From Bacteroidales bacterium (GTDB lineage: Bacteria > Bacteroidota > Bacteroidia > Bacteroidales > F082): 64,000 nt of DNA. The stretch covers positions 1 through 64,000 of the forward strand of contig JAKSMV010000010.1 in assembly GCA_024400425.1 (NCBI GenBank). Direction: 5' to 3'. Positions 28,299-38,384 of the stretch are shown one piece after another. A program made the position numbers and the translations under genes. How positions within the stretch are numbered: position 1 is the stretch's first letter; each line of letters begins with the position of its first letter. The notes under the pieces are model-generated. The model searched no databases and was not told where the DNA came from. It saw nothing but the letters and a program-made list of their open reading frames with translations.

Positions 28299-28320
28299 AG
28301 CCGTTTAAAAATTGAAAATT

Positions 28321-29832
28321 ATGCTCAAAAAAGAAGACTTAGCTCAATTAAAGGCTCGTAATATCACTGAAAATCAAGTTGAAAATCAAGTTGCCCAACT
28401 GAAAAGAGGTACTGCTTTCGTCAATTTGAAGCGTCCTGCCCTACTCGATGACGGCATTGTTCGCCTCAACGAAGATGAAATCTCTCGATTGGTAAAGGTG
28501 TTTGAGGAAGACCGGGAGTTTTATCGCTTCACAAAGTTCGTTCCTGCATCGGGTGCTGCCTCACGTATGTTCAAGAACCTCTTCTCGTTCATGGAAGATG
28601 GCCAAGAAAACGACTTCACAGACAAGTTTTTCAATGGTTTGCAGCACTTTGCCTTTTACGACGACCTCAACGGAAAGGTAAAGCAGCGCTTCGGTTGCGA
28701 CCTCAACGAGATGATGAGCAACAACCGCAAAGTGGAAATCGTGAACACCTTGCTCACCGAAGCGGGTTTAGCCTACGGCAAGTTGCCCAAGGCCTTGCTG
28801 AAATTCCACCATTACGATGGCTACGACCGTCTTGCTTTGGAAGAGCACCTCGTGGAAGCAGCGCACTATGCCACTGATAGCGACGACTGTGCATGGCTGC
28901 ATTTCACCGTATCGCCCGAGCATGAGCAGATGTTCAAAGACACTGTAAATCAACTGAAAGGCAAATACGAGCAAGAGTATGGCATCAAGTATGAAATCAC
29001 CTATTCATGCCAGAAGCCTTCCACCGACACCGTCGCCATCGACGCCAACGGCGACCTGTTCCGCGAAAGCGACGGTAGCATCTTGTTCCGTCCTGGCGGA
29101 CATGGCGCCCTCATCGAAAACCTCAACGACCTCGAAGAGGAAATCGTCTTCATCAAGAACATCGACAATATCGTTGCCGAACCCAAGTCAGAAGCCACCA
29201 TCCTTTACAAAAAGGCTTTGGCAGGCATGTTGATTCAGCTTCAGCAAAAGACCTTCGAATACTTAGAGATGCTCGACGACGGTTGCCTCAACGACACCGA
29301 AATCAACGAAATCGTCGCCTTCGCAAAAGACAAGCTGATGATTGACATCCCCGATTTCGTGATGGACTACAATGAAATTGAGAAAGTAGATTTCCTCTAT
29401 AACAAGCTTAATCGCCCGATGCGCGTTTGCGGCATGGTGAAAAACGAAGGCGAACCTGGAGGTGGCCCATTCTGGATCAGCAATCTGGACGACGAAATTT
29501 CGCTCCAAATCATCGAGTCGTCGCAAATCAACCACAGCGACACGCAGCAAGAAGCCATCTTCAAGGCATCGTCACACTTCAACCCTGTCGATTTGGTGTG
29601 CGGCTGCTGGAACTACAAGGGCGAAGCCTTCAACCTCACCGATTTCGTTGACCCGAGCACGGGATTCGTCTCAAGCAAGTCGAAAGACGGCAAGGAACTG
29701 AAAGCCTTGGAGTTGCCAGGCTTATGGAACGGCGCCATGGCCGACTGGATTACCGTCTTCGTCGAAGTGCCCATCGAGACCTTCAACCCAGTGAAGACCG
29801 TGAACGACCTATTGAAGCCGATGCACCAATAA
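28321..29832 (+). CDS. DUF4301 family protein
   Basis: 503 residues from ATG 28321 (an in-frame TTG three codons upstream is unlikely). The sequence shows the family-typical KFVPASGAASRMFKNL, GLAYGKLPKALLKFH, FRPGGHGALIENLND and NEGEPGGGPFW motifs. DUF4301 is a Bacteroidota-enriched cytosolic family with a nucleotidyltransferase-like look (GxxSRMFK and Gly-rich loops), but no activity is established. The gene is monocistronic between tRNA-Leu genes and a convergent transporter. Confidence 0.9.
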   Translation: MLKKEDLAQLKARNITENQVENQVAQLKRGTAFVNLKRPALLDDGIVRLNEDEISRLVKVFEEDREFYRFTKFVPASGAASRMFKNLFSFMEDGQENDFTDKFFNGLQHFAFYDDLNGKVKQRFGCDLNEMMSNNRKVEIVNTLLTEAGLAYGKLPKALLKFHHYDGYDRLALEEHLVEAAHYATDSDDCAWLHFTVSPEHEQMFKDTVNQLKGKYEQEYGIKYEITYSCQKPSTDTVAIDANGDLFRESDGSILFRPGGHGALIENLNDLEEEIVFIKNIDNIVAEPKSEATILYKKALAGMLIQLQQKTFEYLEMLDDGCLNDTEINEIVAFAKDKLMIDIPDFVMDYNEIEKVDFLYNKLNRPMRVCGMVKNEGEPGGGPFWISNLDDEISLQIIESSQINHSDTQQEAIFKASSHFNPVDLVCGCWNYKGEAFNLTDFVDPSTGFVSSKSKDGKELKALELPGLWNGAMADWITVFVEVPIETFNPVKTVNDLLKPMHQ

Positions 29833-29846
29833 GCGGTTCAGTTCAA

Positions 29847-31043
29847 TTAAGCAGCCAGCAAGACAAGCAGTTGCGCGCTAAAGATGCGCAAGAACATCGT
29901 CAAAGGATAGACAGTGGCATAACCCGTGTTAGGCAGTTTGCAACCTTCGGGAGCTACCGTATTGGCGAAAGCCAAAGTCGGCGGGTCGGTGGTGGCACCG
30001 CCTATGACGCCCATCAAGGTGTAGTAATTCACATGCAATACAAGGCGGGCAAAGATGGCAACGATAAGTTCAGGCACCATGGTGATGATGACGCCATAGA
30101 GCACCCACATGTAACCACCTTCGGCAATAGTCTGCACGAAGCTGCCGCCTGCACTCAAACCCACAGCGGCGAGGAAAAGGGCGATACCTACTTCACGCAA
30201 CATCCAAATGCCATGACTGTCGGTGAAATCAGTGCCGAACCAGTTTTTCTTCACACCTAACCAGCTCACCAACAAAGCTATCACCAAAGGACCGCCAGCC
30301 AAGCCCAACTTGACGGGAGCCGACATGCCGACAGGAACGGGAATAGAGCCAAGGATGACACCCAATGCGATGATGACGAAAATCGGTATCAGGTTCACCT
30401 TATGACGCAACGAGGTAGGAGTAGCTTGTTTTTCAGTCTGAACAGGAGCGCCTTCCTCCAATATCGGTTCGTCTTTCAGATTGATGCGGCAGATAGGACG
30501 CAGCAAAAGGCAGGTGACGATAAGTCCGACAACGCCCAACGGATAAGCCACAGCATAACCGCTGGCAATGGTATCAGCCGTGCCCAAACCCAACTCGGTG
30601 ATGGTCTGTTGGGCAGCCGACATACCCGGTGTGTTGGTGATAGCACCCGTATAGACACCCGCCATCACAGCCAGCGATTCACCGCTTATCTTACTGATAA
30701 TAATAGTAGTTATCACGCCCAAAGCAACGATGGCAACCGCCAGGAGATTGAGTTTCAGTCCACCTTTCTTGAACGATTTGAAGAAGCCTGGACCTACTTG
30801 GATACCCACAGCGGTAACGAAGAGAATCAAGCCAAACTCCTTGATGACATGAATCATGTCGTGGTTCAAATCGACACCCAAGGCACTCACCAAGATACCC
30901 ACAAAGAGCACCCATGTGATGCCTAACGAAACACCCTTGACTTTGATACGGCCCAAAAGAAGGCCTGCGAAAATAGCAAATGATAGATAAAGCACGGTAG
31001 GCCCGACGCCCGAACCGCAAAAAAGACTTGTAAACCAATTCAT
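29847..31043 (-). CDS. AspT/YidE/YbjL-family transporter, short form
   Basis: 398 residues with ten or more membrane segments and the internal duplication of the family: GLILFVTAVGIQVGPGFF in the first half is repeated as GIALFLAAVGLSAGGSFV in the second, as are GAITNTPGMSAAQQ and GGATTDPPTLAFA. Usual YidE-type proteins are about 550 residues and have two TrkA-C domains between the halves; here only about 40 charged residues are found (LKDEPILEEGAPVQTEKQ). The start overlaps the stop of the transketolase-LOG gene (ATGA), so it belongs to that operon. Substrate unknown; an organic anion is likely. Confidence 0.85.
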   Translation of the reverse strand: MNWFTSLFCGSGVGPTVLYLSFAIFAGLLLGRIKVKGVSLGITWVLFVGILVSALGVDLNHDMIHVIKEFGLILFVTAVGIQVGPGFFKSFKKGGLKLNLLAVAIVALGVITTIIISKISGESLAVMAGVYTGAITNTPGMSAAQQTITELGLGTADTIASGYAVAYPLGVVGLIVTCLLLRPICRINLKDEPILEEGAPVQTEKQATPTSLRHKVNLIPIFVIIALGVILGSIPVPVGMSAPVKLGLAGGPLVIALLVSWLGVKKNWFGTDFTDSHGIWMLREVGIALFLAAVGLSAGGSFVQTIAEGGYMWVLYGVIITMVPELIVAIFARLVLHVNYYTLMGVIGGATTDPPTLAFANTVAPEGCKLPNTGYATVYPLTMFLRIFSAQLLVLLAA

Positions 31044-32926
31044 ATATTTTGTTCTTTAAATCTCACCAAAGCTTCGATGATTTCGTCGTTATCATCGGAA
31101 ATGGTGAGAATCATGTTCTTGTAAATGCCACGGTCGCTAAAATCCTTGAGCATGGAATAAGCCGGTATGTGATTGGTAAAGTAATCCTTGCCCATGAAAA
31201 TCATCGGGCTGGCGTAACCCACACTCTCATAGTGGTTTTGGGCGGCATCTTGGAAGATTTCCTGCATGGTTCCGGCACTGCCGGGCGTATAGATGATACC
31301 CCCCTTGGCAACGGTGACGACACCATCTTCGCGGATGCTGTTGTCGAAATATTTGGCAATGTCGGTAGCAAAAGGAGCCGTTGGCTCGTGGCCATAATAC
31401 CAAGTCGGGATGGCCAAGCTACGATATTCGGTCTGCAACGGGAAGCGTTCCATCACCTCGAACGAACGGCGCAGCCAACCCTCGTCTCGGAAGGTTGGCG
31501 AAGGGCTCAGCATTCCAATCGCTTCATCCACTTCGGCCTCACTCCTTCCCGCCATCCATGCGCCCAGATGCGTGGCTTCCATCGCGCCCGGACCACCACC
31601 AGTCACCATCAGACGGCCCATTTCGGTCAGTTTCTTGCTCAGCAACACAATCTGACGATAGCCTGGGTCATCGCGGCGTTTGGCATGGCCGCCCATGATG
31701 CCGATGACCATCTTTTCGTCATACGTATCCAAGAGACGATACATGCAACGCGTGATGAAATGGTCGTGCAAGGAACGCGCCAAGGTTTCACGGACATCCT
31801 TGCCTCGTTGCTTGCCATAACTGATGTAATGCTTATATACACGCGTATCGAAACATGTCTCGAAAGTGCTTTCATCGTGGTAATCATAACCAGCATACAG
31901 CTCTTTAAAGGAGTAGAGTTTGCGTGGATAAGTCGGGAAAGGCTTGTCCATCTGGGGAATGAACAGACTCAAATCGGACCGTGCTTCTTCCAAAGCCATA
32001 CGATTCACGATACCAGCCGCATCAAGGTGATATTTGTGGAACAAAGCCGATGCCTGCCCCGACTCGCCGAAATGGTCGTCCATGCCGATGCGCACCACAC
32101 GAATCGGGTGATGCTCGGCCAAGAACTCGGCCACGGCACTACCCAGACCACCTGCAATCTGATGTTCTTCGACGGTGAAAATCATTCGGGTCTCAGTTGC
32201 CGCCTTCAGCAGAACATCGCCATCCAAAGGCTTGATAGTATGCATATTGATAACCCTAATGGAAAGACCCATCGTTTCCAGCATATCGGCGGCTTTCAAG
32301 GCTTCCCACACCTCGTGGCCCGTGGCAACAATGGTAATGTGACGGCCTTCGCGCACCACCTGAGCCTTACCGATTTCAAAGTCCTGATTCTCATCGGTGA
32401 AATCCGGCACGGCTTCACGGCCAAAACGGATATAAACCGGTCCATCGAGTTCGTTGATGGCTTTTTGCACCGCAATTTTGGTCTGCGTGGCATCGCAAGG
32501 CGATATCACGGTCATGTTGGGCAATACGCGCATCGTGGCGATGTCTTCCAAAGCCTGATGCGTTGCGCCATCGGGACCCACCGACACGCCAGCATGAGCA
32601 CCGCCAATGACGACATGCACATTGTTGTAACATACCGAAATACGGATTTGGTCGTTGGCACGATGCGCTGCAAAAACACCGTATGTGCTGAACACCGGAA
32701 CCTTGCCACTCAAGGCCAGACCCGCAGCCGTTGCCACGCAATCCTGTTCGGCGATGCCCATCGAGAAAAAACGCTCGGGGAACGCCTCTGCAAAAAGATT
32801 CATGCCAACCGATGCGGTGATGTCAGCACCAAGTCCGACGACATTAGGATTGGCCTGAGCTGCCGCCAAAACACCTTCGCCAAAACCCGTTTTGGTGGGT
32901 TTGTTACCTTTATTAATATAGTTCAT
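31040..32926 (-). CDS. Fusion of transketolase C-terminal subunit and LOG-family phosphoribohydrolase
   Basis: 628 residues in one uninterrupted frame. Residues 1-310 are the transketolase C-terminal subunit: TGFGEGVLAAAQ, the cofactor Glu in MGIAEQDCVATAAGLAL, THQALEDIATMRVLPNM and VYIRFGR. After a linker of about 50 residues, residues 370-628 form a Rossmann protein of the LOG/TIGR00730 type, with GIMGGHAKRRDDPGY, the signature TGGGPGAMEATHLGA, and IYTPGSAGTMQEIFQDA, a variant of the PGGxGTxxE catalytic motif. LOG-type enzymes cleave nucleoside monophosphates to base and ribose 5-phosphate, which is a transketolase substrate. It overlaps the N-terminal subunit gene by 14 bp and the transporter by 4 bp. 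Confidence 0.93.
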   Translation of the reverse strand: MNYINKGNKPTKTGFGEGVLAAAQANPNVVGLGADITASVGMNLFAEAFPERFFSMGIAEQDCVATAAGLALSGKVPVFSTYGVFAAHRANDQIRISVCYNNVHVVIGGAHAGVSVGPDGATHQALEDIATMRVLPNMTVISPCDATQTKIAVQKAINELDGPVYIRFGREAVPDFTDENQDFEIGKAQVVREGRHITIVATGHEVWEALKAADMLETMGLSIRVINMHTIKPLDGDVLLKAATETRMIFTVEEHQIAGGLGSAVAEFLAEHHPIRVVRIGMDDHFGESGQASALFHKYHLDAAGIVNRMALEEARSDLSLFIPQMDKPFPTYPRKLYSFKELYAGYDYHDESTFETCFDTRVYKHYISYGKQRGKDVRETLARSLHDHFITRCMYRLLDTYDEKMVIGIMGGHAKRRDDPGYRQIVLLSKKLTEMGRLMVTGGGPGAMEATHLGAWMAGRSEAEVDEAIGMLSPSPTFRDEGWLRRSFEVMERFPLQTEYRSLAIPTWYYGHEPTAPFATDIAKYFDNSIREDGVVTVAKGGIIYTPGSAGTMQEIFQDAAQNHYESVGYASPMIFMGKDYFTNHIPAYSMLKDFSDRGIYKNMILTISDDNDEIIEALVRFKEQNI

Positions 32927-33725
32927 CGATAAATTCTCCCAATTGTTCTTTTGTCGGCACCTTACCGTGCCACTTGTTGTTGTCTTCGATGGATTTCACA
33001 CCTTTGCCCATCACGGTATCGGCAATGATGACCGTCGGTTTGCCTTGCATTTTGTCGGCCATATCCAAAGCCATCTTGATTTGGCTAAAGTCGTGACCAT
33101 CAATTTCGATGGCGTTCCAGCCGAAAGCCAACCATTTGTCTTTCAGTGGGTCGATGGCCATAACTTGCTCCGTTCCGCCGTCAATCTGGAGGCGGTTTCT
33201 GTCGATGATGGCGCAAAGGTTATCCACCTTTTGATGTGCCGCTGCCATCGCCGACTCCCACACGCTTCCCTCCTGCTGCTCGCCATCGCCCATGATGCAG
33301 AACACGCGGTTTGGATTGCCATCCATCTTGGCTGCCAGAGCCATGCCCAAAGCTACGCCCAGACCTTGTCCTAAAGAACCCGAACAAGACTCCAAACCAG
33401 GCAGTTGGAACTCATAACTCGGGTGGCCTTGCAGACGGCTTCCCATTTTGCGCAAGGTCATCATTTCCGCTTCCGGGAAATAACCCGCAGCCGCCAAAGT
33501 GGCATACAAGACCGGTGCCGTATGTCCGATGGAAAGAATCACTTTGTCGCGGCCTTCCCATTTTGGATTGTCTGGATTGTGACACAAGTGATTGAAATAC
33601 AATACCGTGAAAATATCCACCAAATCCATTGAACCACCCGTATGACCCGAACCTGCCTCCGCCAAGGAAGTCAGAATCAGTTCGCGGATGTGAGTGGCTT
33701 TCTGTTTCAGTTCGTCGTTTGTCAT
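32913..33725 (-). CDS. Transketolase N-terminal subunit
   Basis: 270 residues. It binds the pyrophosphate end of thiamine diphosphate and pairs with the C-terminal subunit. The motifs are EAGSGHTGGSMDLVDIFTVLY, PGLESCSGSLGQGLGVALG and GDGEQQEGSVWES...IIDRNRLQ, the ThDP GDG-N signature. Split two-gene transketolases of this size are common in Bacteroidota and archaea, so this is not a frameshift. First gene of the operon; its own -7 box lies upstream. Confidence 0.95.
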   Translation of the reverse strand: MTNDELKQKATHIRELILTSLAEAGSGHTGGSMDLVDIFTVLYFNHLCHNPDNPKWEGRDKVILSIGHTAPVLYATLAAAGYFPEAEMMTLRKMGSRLQGHPSYEFQLPGLESCSGSLGQGLGVALGMALAAKMDGNPNRVFCIMGDGEQQEGSVWESAMAAAHQKVDNLCAIIDRNRLQIDGGTEQVMAIDPLKDKWLAFGWNAIEIDGHDFSQIKMALDMADKMQGKPTVIIADTVMGKGVKSIEDNNKWHGKVPTKEQLGEFIDELY

Positions 33726-33818: not shown

Positions 33819-35777
33819 ATGAAAAGAGTCTTATTATTCGTCTTGTTATTGGCAATTTGTACCTTTCATGCTTTAGCCTACGATTTTACAGCTACATGTC
33901 CTAGTGGCCAAACACTCTACTATACCATTCGCGATGCTAGCCAACACGCCATCGCCTTAGTAGCACCCAATGACGAGCACTATCCCCCTTATCAAGGTTA
34001 CACCAGTCCCCAAGGAGCCATCGAGCTTTCCGCGACTGTAGAACATGAAGGCACAACCTACACCCTTGTCGAGATAGGTCCCTATGCCCTCGGCTATCTT
34101 AGCTCCGATGTCCATGGCGACATCGTCATCCCCAACACAGTGACCCTCATCGGCAAGCAGGCCTTCTCACACAGCTATTTCGATGGCACCATCACCATCG
34201 GCGACCACGTCGTCACTATCAGAAGCTCAGCCTTCAATAGTACATTCTGTCACGGATCGGTAGTTCTGCCATCCAGCGTTAGGACAATAGAAAAATATGC
34301 CTTTTCCGAAAATGAGTACCTTGATGGCGAACTCATCCTTAACGAAGGGCTGGAAAGCATCGGCGAGCGTGCCTTCTTCAGATGCCCGTCGTTTCAAGGT
34401 CCATTGCGACTTCCAAGCACACTCACCTACCTTGACGATTTCTGTTTTGCCTACTGTTCAGGCTTCACGGGCGAACTTGTCATCCCCGAAGGAATAGAAA
34501 CTATTCCCGACTATGCTTTTAGCCATTGTTCCGGTATAGAGAGCCTTTCTTTTCGCGGCAATATATCCCGAATCAATTCGAGGGCCTTTGAGTACTGTTC
34601 GGGGCTTTCAGGTACCTTGAACTTACCGTCGACTATAACCTACACAGGCGCCCATGCCTTTTCCTATTGTTCCGGTTTCACCCACCTCATCCTACCCGAT
34701 ACATTCTACAGTTTTAACTCAGGGTGCTTTAGGGGCTGTACTGGACTCTCCGGCGACATCGTCATTCCACAAGGCACAACCAGCATACCTAACGAAACCT
34801 TTGCCGGATGCATAAACATCGAACATGTACAGTTTCCACAATCCTTAACTGTCATTGGAAGCGATGCCTTTGCCGGATGCACTAGTTTGAGCGACTTGCA
34901 ACTTCCCAATGGTCTAAAAACCATCAAAAGCGATGCTTTTGATGGTTGCATCAGTCTGGAAGGCGAACTGATTCTGCCTGAGAGCCTCACTTCTATTGAT
35001 GATAGAGCATTCTTCGACTGTGCAGGACTTACCGGCACGCTCATCATTCCAGACAAGGTCCAAAAGGTTGGCTTTTACGCCTTCGAAGGTTGTTCAAACC
35101 TAGGTCCCGAAGCTATCATAGGGTCCTCGGTATTAGAACTTGGCCAAAGATGTTTCTACGACACAGGCATCACACATCTAACCTTCCGCAGTACAACGCC
35201 ACCCTATGCCAACTACGGTATGGGGCTAGATTCTGCCGACTGCACTGTTCCCTGCGGAACAGTTTCGGAATACATAAACCGATTCGGCGACCATTTCACG
35301 GATTACGAAGAGGGCATGGTCTTCCGCTATAACGTCGTCAGCAACGACCTTACCCTTGGCAATGTTGCTATTGTGGAAACACCCGTTTGCGACAATAATG
35401 CCCACCTTGTTGCCATCGCCAATCCCTTGCCAGAGAAGGTTTTCAGTCACTGGACCGTTAACGGCAACATGGCCGGGAACGACACCATCTTGAGCATCAC
35501 TGTGGAACGCGACTGTGAAGTCATGGCTCATTTCCTTGGAGGCGCAGGTATGGAAGAAGCAGCCATCCAAATTGAAATCCATCCAACCATCACCAGCAAC
35601 ATCATTAGGGTGAACGCCGACCACCTGCTATACCTTGAAATATACGACCTCAATGGACGCTGCGTCGCTCATTCTGAGGAAAGTCAAATTGACCTCAGCA
35701 ACCTTTCTTCGGGATGCTACATTGCCCGAGCACGGCTGAAGGAAGGTGAGGCAATACGCAAAGTCATCAAGATGTAA
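33819..35777 (+). CDS. BspA-type leucine-rich repeat surface protein with T9SS-like C-terminal domain
   Basis: 652 residues. Signal peptide (MKRVLLFVLLLAICTFHALA), then about 15 LRR_5 repeats of 22-24 residues (for example LPSTLTYLDDFCFAYCSGF; LPESLTSIDDRAFFDCAG) covering residues 80-450. A beta-sandwich-like segment with HWTVNGNMAGNDTI follows. The last 80 residues (LYLEIYDLNGRCVA ... SSGCYIARARLKEG) have the form of a type A T9SS sorting domain. BspA-type proteins bind host or microbial surfaces. Secretion by the type IX system is inferred. Confidence 0.9.
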   Translation: MKRVLLFVLLLAICTFHALAYDFTATCPSGQTLYYTIRDASQHAIALVAPNDEHYPPYQGYTSPQGAIELSATVEHEGTTYTLVEIGPYALGYLSSDVHGDIVIPNTVTLIGKQAFSHSYFDGTITIGDHVVTIRSSAFNSTFCHGSVVLPSSVRTIEKYAFSENEYLDGELILNEGLESIGERAFFRCPSFQGPLRLPSTLTYLDDFCFAYCSGFTGELVIPEGIETIPDYAFSHCSGIESLSFRGNISRINSRAFEYCSGLSGTLNLPSTITYTGAHAFSYCSGFTHLILPDTFYSFNSGCFRGCTGLSGDIVIPQGTTSIPNETFAGCINIEHVQFPQSLTVIGSDAFAGCTSLSDLQLPNGLKTIKSDAFDGCISLEGELILPESLTSIDDRAFFDCAGLTGTLIIPDKVQKVGFYAFEGCSNLGPEAIIGSSVLELGQRCFYDTGITHLTFRSTTPPYANYGMGLDSADCTVPCGTVSEYINRFGDHFTDYEEGMVFRYNVVSNDLTLGNVAIVETPVCDNNAHLVAIANPLPEKVFSHWTVNGNMAGNDTILSITVERDCEVMAHFLGGAGMEEAAIQIEIHPTITSNIIRVNADHLLYLEIYDLNGRCVAHSEESQIDLSNLSSGCYIARARLKEGEAIRKVIKM

Positions 35778-35788
35778 ATGATTATGGT

Positions 35789-36298
35789 TTAAATCAACCC
35801 TACCAAATCCTTGACAACGTAGAAGATGCACACGCAGCCATAGACTATTTTGACGAAGGTGCCAGCCATGAAACCGATGAACGAGCCGAAGGCCGAGCGC
35901 CAAGCCAATTTGTCAGGCGTCTTGTTGATCTTTTCGCCGATATAGGCTCCGAAAAACGGTCCCGCCAACACTACTATGAAGCCGACGGGGAAAAACAGCG
36001 TTATCAAAAGGCCTAAAATCAAGCCGATGGTGCTGCCGCGCACACCCGCTTTGCTGCCGCCGAATTTCTTCGTTCCCCAGACGGGAACGACATAATCGAG
36101 CGTAAAGACAATGGCACCGATAACGCCCATAATCACAAGAAACTTAGTGGAATAATCAATGCCTTCAACAAACGACAAAGCCAGCAGGCCGAGGAAACTG
36201 ATAGGCGTTCCGGCAATGCCCGGGACGACAGCGCCCACTATGCCTATCAACACCAACAAAATGGCTACTATAATTAATATGATTGACATTCCGCTCAT
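35789..36298 (-). CDS. DUF456 family membrane protein
   Basis: 169 residues from ATG 36298, chosen because longer in-frame extensions run through the divergent promoter and into the next gene. It has four to five hydrophobic segments: IILIIVAILLVLIGIVGAVV with PGIAGTPISFLG, FLVIMGVIGAIVFTLDYVVP, GLILGLLITLFFPVGFIVVL with GPFFGAYIGE, and a C-terminal helix. GTKKFGGSKAGVRGSTIG is the conserved glycine-rich loop of DUF456. Function unknown; present in many Bacteroidota. Convergent with the LRR gene. Confidence 0.88.
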   Translation of the reverse strand: MSGMSIILIIVAILLVLIGIVGAVVPGIAGTPISFLGLLALSFVEGIDYSTKFLVIMGVIGAIVFTLDYVVPVWGTKKFGGSKAGVRGSTIGLILGLLITLFFPVGFIVVLAGPFFGAYIGEKINKTPDKLAWRSAFGSFIGFMAGTFVKIVYGCVCIFYVVKDLVGLI

Positions 36299-37262: not shown

Positions 37263-38384
37263 ATGAGTCAACTCATTGTAAAAGATAATGATTATGCGGC
37301 TTGGGTAACAGACATCAAGCAGCGATTCAAGAGCACACAAGTAAAAACTTCAGTAAAACTCAATCAGGAAGTGTTGCTGTTTTACTGGAATTTGGGGCGT
37401 GATATGGTAAATATGAACATCGAAAAACGATGGGGCGAAGGCGTAATGAAAATGCTTAGCCAAGACTTGAAAGATGCGCTTCCTGAAGTGAACGGTTTTT
37501 CTGTTACAAATTTGTATTACATAAAAAGATTTTATATTACTTATAATCAAGTATTTGAAAATTTACCCCAAGCCGAGGTAAATTTCAACGATGAAAGCAT
37601 TTCAGAATTTTTACCCCAAGCTGGGGCAAAAATGAAAGGCAACGCGAACATGCTTTTCTCAATTCCGTGGACTCACCATAAATACATTTTAGACAAAGTG
37701 AAAGGCAATGCCCAAAAAGGCTTGTTTTTCGTTCAAAAGACAATAGAAAACAATTGGAGTCGTTCAGCATTGTTGAACTTTTTGGACACCGACCTCTATG
37801 AACGGCAAGGAAAAGCCATCACAAACTTTGTCAATACATTACCAACAGTACAAGGAGACTTAGCAAGTGAATTGATTCATGACCCTTATAATTTCGATTT
37901 TCTAACTATGACAGAAGGATATAGGGAAAAAGAATTAAAGCAAGCCCTTATTGACAATATTGTCAAGTTTCTAATGGAATTAGGAAGAGGATTTGCTTTC
38001 ATGGGGCAAGAATATCGTTTACAGGTAAGCAGCAAAGAGCAGTTCCTCGATTTATTATTTTACAACACCCAAATACATTGTTATGTGGTTGTTGAAGTAA
38101 AAGTAACCGAATTTGAGCCTTCTTATCTTGGCCAACTATCTGCATATGTATCATTTGTGAATCACACATTAAAGGCAGAACAGGACAATCCTACCGTTGG
38201 CTTGCTAATTTGCAAATCAAAAGACAATGTATTTGCACAATACTCATTAGAAGGATATAATCAACCAATTGGAATATCCGAATATGAAGGCATTAACCTT
38301 TTGCCAACAGATTTCAAGAGCAATTTGCCAAGTATTGAAGATATTGAAGCACAATTAACAGCAAAGAGCAATGAGAAAGTTTAG
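37263..38384 (+). CDS. DUF1016 (YhcG-type) PD-(D/E)XK nuclease family protein, second locus
   Basis: 373 residues. The N-terminal DUF1016 domain contains KLNQEVLLFYWNLGRDMV and GFSVTNLYYIKRFYITY; the nuclease domain has SSKEQFLDLLFYNTQIHCYV, VVEVKVTEFEPSYLGQLSAY and GLLICKSKDN. It shares the architecture of the gene at 10.6-11.7 kb but with low identity by eye. The DNA is plainly more AT-rich than both neighbours. It sits between two envelope-protein genes and its stop overlaps the next start by 14 bp. No direct repeats of its edges are visible. Probably a recent insertion (inference). Confidence 0.9.
   Translation: MSQLIVKDNDYAAWVTDIKQRFKSTQVKTSVKLNQEVLLFYWNLGRDMVNMNIEKRWGEGVMKMLSQDLKDALPEVNGFSVTNLYYIKRFYITYNQVFENLPQAEVNFNDESISEFLPQAGAKMKGNANMLFSIPWTHHKYILDKVKGNAQKGLFFVQKTIENNWSRSALLNFLDTDLYERQGKAITNFVNTLPTVQGDLASELIHDPYNFDFLTMTEGYREKELKQALIDNIVKFLMELGRGFAFMGQEYRLQVSSKEQFLDLLFYNTQIHCYVVVEVKVTEFEPSYLGQLSAYVSFVNHTLKAEQDNPTVGLLICKSKDNVFAQYSLEGYNQPIGISEYEGINLLPTDFKSNLPSIEDIEAQLTAKSNEKV

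Follow-up and report, generated by a model that had tools for sequence, protein, structure and literature searches.

The split transketolase (Tkt) of Carboxydothermus hydrogenoformans, the type-II LOG enzymes and the Escherichia coli nucleosidase PpnN are the closest described relatives of the system discussed here. The C. hydrogenoformans enzyme, made of the chains TktN and TktC, is active when reconstituted, and the same report describes split transketolase genes as occurring only in archaea and in some thermophiles (PMC7661550). For LOG enzymes, a role has been assigned to the motif PGGxGTxxE (PMC5379747, PMC4979012). In starved E. coli, sedoheptulose 7-phosphate and erythrose 4-phosphate are reported to rise. 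Because this rise is missing in a ppnN deletion, a link from PpnN-derived ribose 5-phosphate to the pentose phosphate pathway has been argued (PMC10311079).

Here, we describe a gene that joins the TktC half of a split transketolase to a LOG-like domain. It lies in a 64,000-nucleotide stretch from a Bacteroidales bacterium of family F082 (positions 1 to 64,000 of contig JAKSMV010000010.1, assembly GCA_024400425.1), called the window below. The fusion is genuine and clade-specific. Although surprising, it combines enzymes of known kinds and does not make a new class. We see an even chance that its product cleaves a nucleoside monophosphate to base and ribose 5-phosphate, likely passing the sugar to its own transketolase. 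In the open-licence PMC literature, no paper describing a LOG-transketolase fusion was found by title or abstract opening.

Distribution and domain make-up of the TktC-LOG gene

An earlier note, made from this DNA alone, had described one frame holding a TktC followed by a LOG domain with two characteristic motifs. This description is confirmed (TGGGPGAMEA, residues 442-451; PGSAGTMQE, residues 548-556). At the junction, where a stop or frameshift would have counted as a refutation in the note, the DNA reads through without interruption, and 37 genus genomes, counting that of the window, have a continuous frame. A fused frame common to so many genomes rules out an assembly artefact, and the fusion is beyond chance.

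With thresholds of E <=1e-20 for the LOG domain and E <=1e-110 for TktC of the window type, 42 of the family's 173 genomes have the LOG domain, every one of them in the window's genus. Open frames of 599-681 aa join it to TktC in 37 of these, and the other five have it in frames of 348-381 aa. Window-type TktC occurs in 49 of the 99 genus genomes (window's included), namely the 37 fused ones and 12 in which its frame measures 319-328 aa; the unfused TktC of locus L181 measures 315 aa from its ATG. The genus thus divides into 37 fused, 12 Tkt-only, five LOG-only and 45 genomes with neither half, and both halves as separate genes were seen in none of the genus genomes examined. Completeness of at least 90% is listed for eight of the 12 Tkt-only and three of the five LOG-only genomes; some genus genomes are incomplete, and single absences may be gaps. 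Co-occurrence of the two halves within the genus (Fisher p 1.4e-11) is mostly due to the fusion itself and to shared descent, and we do not use it as evidence.

At wider scale, the LOG domain is present in 20 of 393 order genomes (17 outside the genus, frames of at most 442 aa) and in 13 of 395 phylum genomes (the window's own and 12 others with frames of 372-460 aa). No fusion was seen outside the genus in these two sets, where non-genus LOG frames span 80-460 aa. A search of 5.8 billion proteins with the LOG region gave 6878 matches above threshold. Among the 120 matches listed, 119 have the C-terminal Pfam domain of transketolase, and both TktC domains are present in 113; the one match lacking the C-terminal domain is a 368-aa protein with no domain listed. 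On GTDB contigs, the best 80 of 573 relatives comprise 36 fused loci, five LOG-only loci of the same clade (76-80% identity) and 39 free-standing LOG genes from other Bacteroidota. Since only these 80 were examined and sampling reached up to the phylum, other fusions may exist. Sources in the titles of fused loci, where given, are horse, roe deer, red deer, water buffalo, yak and sheep gut, and RUG labels presumably denote rumen genomes. Candidatus Limimorpha equi and bacterium F082 are among the named organisms.

The transketolase half has the domain arrangement of a split enzyme. According to Pfam, NCBIfam and alignments with 6yak and 6yaj, TktN carries the thiamine diphosphate (ThDP)-binding domain, while TktC carries the Pyr and C-terminal domains (Transket_pyr, residues 11-174, 3.1e-42; Transketolase_C, residues 186-306, 2.9e-32). 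Transketolase models score highest for both subunits (303 and 328.5 bits), which rules out 1-deoxy-D-xylulose 5-phosphate synthase or pyruvate dehydrogenase. Glu60, His111, Asp119 and Ser39 of TktC are invariant (27/27 rows); from the human and yeast enzymes we take them to be catalytic, with Glu60 as the ThDP-activating glutamate.

In the LOG half, conservation with stand-alone relatives begins at about residue 329, earlier than the extent of 370-628 given in the earlier note. The TIGR00730 label given there is only loosely right: the window protein has no match to that model at E 0.01, a level at which 31 of 37 relatives do match. We assign the domain to LOG because a profile of 37 relatives matches type-II LOG structures (2.2e-12) and because of its predicted fold. 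It could instead be a nucleotide-binding sensor that regulates the transketolase without hydrolysing its ligand, like SLOG-fold domains elsewhere. This is unlikely, as the closest predicted folds are type-II LOGs and PpnN, with sensors well below, and the domain is retained in LOG-only genomes where no transketolase is attached. The phosphate loop is kept too: GGGPGAMEA is unchanged in the LOG-bearing rows of our alignment (A3), save one row with Met for Ala448. So are the catalytic residues, far stand-alone members included: Arg532, which a profile alignment matches to the VRK Arg of 5zi9 and 1wek, in 47/47 rows and the Glu in 46/47.

This LOG-related branch is large and is not covered by a curated family; the few members that carry a name are called hypothetical protein. 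By eye, two free-standing relatives from Prevotellaceae (L097:4884-5903 and L083:4887-5894) appear to have an N-terminal signal peptide, and L097 also shows a lipoprotein-like Cys; the branch may therefore be exported in those records. The window genome holds a second LOG fusion (L202:1327-2511, G000:C14), in which a single frame, 395 aa long when counted from the chosen Met, encodes a canonical LOG and then a P-loop kinase-like domain (AAA_18; a deoxynucleotide kinase match lies below cut-off). The gene directly behind it resembles deoxycytidine monophosphate deaminase by eye.

Possible function of the fusion

The role of the fusion is plausible, and a hand-off of ribose 5-phosphate is its most economical reading. 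By analogy with the C. hydrogenoformans enzyme, TktN would pair with TktC-LOG as an alpha2beta2 enzyme with the LOG domains attached. These would release ribose 5-phosphate from nucleoside monophosphates, and the transketolase would convert it, together with xylulose 5-phosphate, to sedoheptulose 7-phosphate and glyceraldehyde 3-phosphate. Transfer would rely on proximity on a flexible tether rather than on a closed channel. A full-length model predicts confident domains (mean predicted local distance difference test, pLDDT, 86.1; predicted template modelling score 0.58) and a linker that is weak at residues 319-322, which suggests such a tether. In this single-chain model, two loops of the transketolase part are weak as well, as would be expected with TktN absent. 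More tentatively, and at somewhat less than even chance, a single complex would turn nucleotides directly into heptulose and triose phosphates, wiring nucleotide salvage to the pentose phosphate pathway in gut Bacteroidales. If true, nucleotide breakdown and the pentose phosphate pathway would be linked by fusion, in a defined protein available for testing.

TktC-LOG is an accessory system, since the same genome carries a second split transketolase as well as two LOG domains of the canonical type. Both TktN genes of the genome are short frames (281 and 288 aa), and a full-length transketolase was not found in this 96% complete assembly. The second transketolase, at G000:C23:54494-56256, is likewise split. 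Among 12 fused relatives, the median ratio of non-synonymous to synonymous divergence (dS), for pairs with dS of 0.1-1.5, is 0.062 for TktN (53 pairs), 0.052 for TktC (28) and 0.061 for LOG (21).

The hand-off had been proposed in the earlier note, with an overlapping TktN gene and an AspT-like transporter completing the unit. Of that proposal, the fusion, the TktN overlap and the LOG-like domain, with its catalytic Arg and Glu, are borne out. The transporter adjoins only three of the 36 fused GTDB loci besides the window and is left out of the system, and this is the first of several points that weigh against the hand-off. Neither half needs the other, because 12 genomes have Tkt without LOG and five have LOG without Tkt. 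Within the stretch available, none of the 39 stand-alone LOG loci has a Tkt gene nearby; no neighbour is common to the 39, genes being shared among groups of close relatives only, and we rejected these neighbours as a clue to function. There is no sign of a channel, since the low-confidence prediction of the linker is what a flexible tether would give. Position 12 of TktC, presumably the phosphate-contact position (human Arg318), is Lys in 24/24 rows of the window's Tkt clade and Arg in three other rows, including the genome's second transketolase. This change appears conservative, and it is not tied to the fusion, because Lys12 is also fixed in four Tkt-only rows.

Further points concern the LOG domain, whose action as a phosphoribohydrolase on a 5'-nucleotide is something we infer. 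The window protein reaches none of the curated LOG-family cut-offs: PF18306 (SLOG cluster LDcluster4) gives 21.6-23.7 bits against 26.3, PF03641 18.1-19.9 against 27, and the PpnN model, over the core only, 18.2-21 against 450. The second motif reads PGS instead of PGG, and the catalytic Arg is followed by Glu533 in place of the LOG Lys, whose loss in CgLOGII (Lys156) is also reported to abolish activity (PMC5379747).

The history of the locus adds to these points. Our trees come from quick searches with Shimodaira-Hasegawa-like approximate likelihood ratio test support only. On a tree of the flanking genes c2 and c3 (50 rows), the three gene states take seven changes, against two or three for a simple history. 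When the window is compared with the nearest relative (L025, L197), dS is 0.27 for TktN, 0.36 for TktC, 0.81 for DUF456 and 1.85 for LOG, and 1.68-2.33 for DUF4301, c3 and c2, the high values being near saturation. The low dS of TktN-TktC beside that of LOG points to independent exchange of the halves, the Tkt part having probably been exchanged recently.

Part of this would also follow from a neutral or expression-level fusion, in which unrelated enzymes were joined by loss of a stop codon and each half still works on its own: the free halves, their apparent independent recombination, the weak linker and the absence of Tkt from stand-alone LOG loci all fit. We nevertheless consider such a fusion improbable. 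It has persisted through a diverse clade (identity down to 78% for TktC and 76% for LOG), it keeps a length of 625-631 aa in 31 of the 36 fused GTDB proteins, and no examined genome has the halves as two genes. The deviating residues raise another alternative, in which the LOG domain cleaves a nucleotide of non-standard type and the Lys12 transketolase uses another sugar phosphate in place of ribose 5-phosphate. Lys12, the difference of Glu533 and Gln555 from the base-site residues of known LOGs, and the other copies of both enzymes in the genome are in line with this, as is the LOG homologue AgmA, reported as an adenosine monophosphate phosphoribohydrolase in angustmycin biosynthesis (PMC8599513). 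The presence of Lys12 in LOG-less rows speaks against it, as does the lack of recognised conserved sugar-modifying genes beside the locus, and we rate it very unlikely.

Locus context and gene history

On the minus strand, transcription runs from TktN through the fused gene to the transporter (Table 1). The earlier note was right that TktN overlaps the fused gene.

Table 1. Features of the fused gene and its neighbours, in window positions.
Feature	Position	Strand	Evidence or remark
Fused gene TktC-LOG, 628 aa, ATG start	31040..32926	minus	single open frame, internal stops absent
TktC part (Pyr and C-terminal domains), residues 1-310	31997..32926	minus	Pfam PF02779, PF02780; 46-49% identity to 6yaj C chain
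Linker, residues ~311-327	31946..31996	minus	block pLDDT 65-68, <50 at 319-322
LOG-like domain, residues ~328-628	31043..31945	minus	predicted fold, stand-alone relatives
GGGPGAMEA, residues 443-451	31574..31600	minus	alignment A3, 47 LOG-bearing rows
PGSAGTMQE, residues 548-556, equivalent of LOG PGGxGTxxE; Glu556 = proposed catalytic Glu	31259..31285	minus	
Arg532, aligns with type-II LOG catalytic Arg	31331..31333	minus	47/47 rows
Lys12	32891..32893	minus	Arg in other transketolase rows
Glu60	32747..32749	minus	27/27 TktC rows
TktN subunit, 270 aa; 14-nt overlap with TktC-LOG	32913..33725	minus	PF00456 2.8e-54; best solved relative 6yak N chain, 3.8e-82
AspT/YidE-like transporter; 4-nt ATGA overlap with fused gene	29847..31043	minus	PF06826 4e-79
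DUF4301 gene, frequent downstream flank	28312..29832	plus	PF14134; synteny
DUF456 membrane protein, conserved upstream neighbour	35789..36289	minus	PF04306 4.5e-32; upstream in all three gene states

Fused, Tkt-only and LOG-only states all occupy one site, behind c3, c2 and DUF456 (12/12 Tkt-only and 5/5 LOG-only loci, plus the window). The downstream side is variable, often with the DUF4301 gene or a C69 peptidase. In a TktN+TktC tree rooted by two rows from other families, seven LOG-less genus members are sister to all others (support 93). On this tree, the fused state takes two changes, fitting one gain of LOG and one later loss in five genomes nested within the fused clade. The LOG-only proteins are nested in the fused clade of the LOG tree. 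Those of L038 and L051 start directly after DUF456 and have a short N-terminal stretch like the TktC end and linker. Nesting and remnant together fit a later loss of TktN-TktC. The flank tree places some rows otherwise than the Tkt tree, a conflict that could reflect exchange between species.

Across window positions 31991-33725, compared with L025 and L029, synonymous divergence of TktN-TktC is far below that of LOG and most flanks, as if this part had undergone a recent exchange whose breakpoint lay close to the fusion junction. In the window, a leucine-rich repeat protein of the BspA type that carries a type IX secretion tail (33819-35777) is interposed between DUF456 and the Tkt genes; L029 has a 617-aa gene at this position, and most relatives have none. 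Opposite the fused gene, the plus strand (31049-32932) is open across 627 codons, nearly the whole gene, which is probably a codon-usage effect. Near the locus, at 37263-38384, lies a YhcG-type PD-(D/E)XK nuclease gene (DUF1016_N and YhcG_C).

Comparison with known systems

The finding draws attention to two further points: the LOG-related branch lacks a curated family, and all transketolases found in this Bacteroidales genome are split. With the C. hydrogenoformans enzyme (6yaj, 6yak; PMC7661550), the window system has in common the TktN and TktC chains and the division of domains between them; the C. hydrogenoformans enzyme is without a LOG domain and has Arg at the position of Lys12. Type-II LOGs (CgLOGII 5wq3, ScLOGII 5zi9, TT1465 1wek) resemble the LOG half in predicted fold, in the catalytic Arg and Glu and in GGGPGxMEA. 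Identity to them is 20-24%, and the window protein differs in PGS for PGG, in Glu for Lys after the catalytic Arg, in a family-specific N-terminal part and in its fusion to TktC. E. coli PpnN (6gfl; PMC6717881, PMC10311079) has a related fold and likely belongs to the same reaction class, but Pfam scans of the window protein found no counterpart of its flanking regulatory, alarmone-gating domains. The fusion would make local the metabolic link that has been argued for E. coli. A parallel comes from Thaumarchaeota, where TktN is reported as fused to ribulose-phosphate 3-epimerase in 73 of 98 assemblies (PMC11237513). There, too, half of a split transketolase is joined to a pathway neighbour, though with the other half, another partner and in another domain of life.
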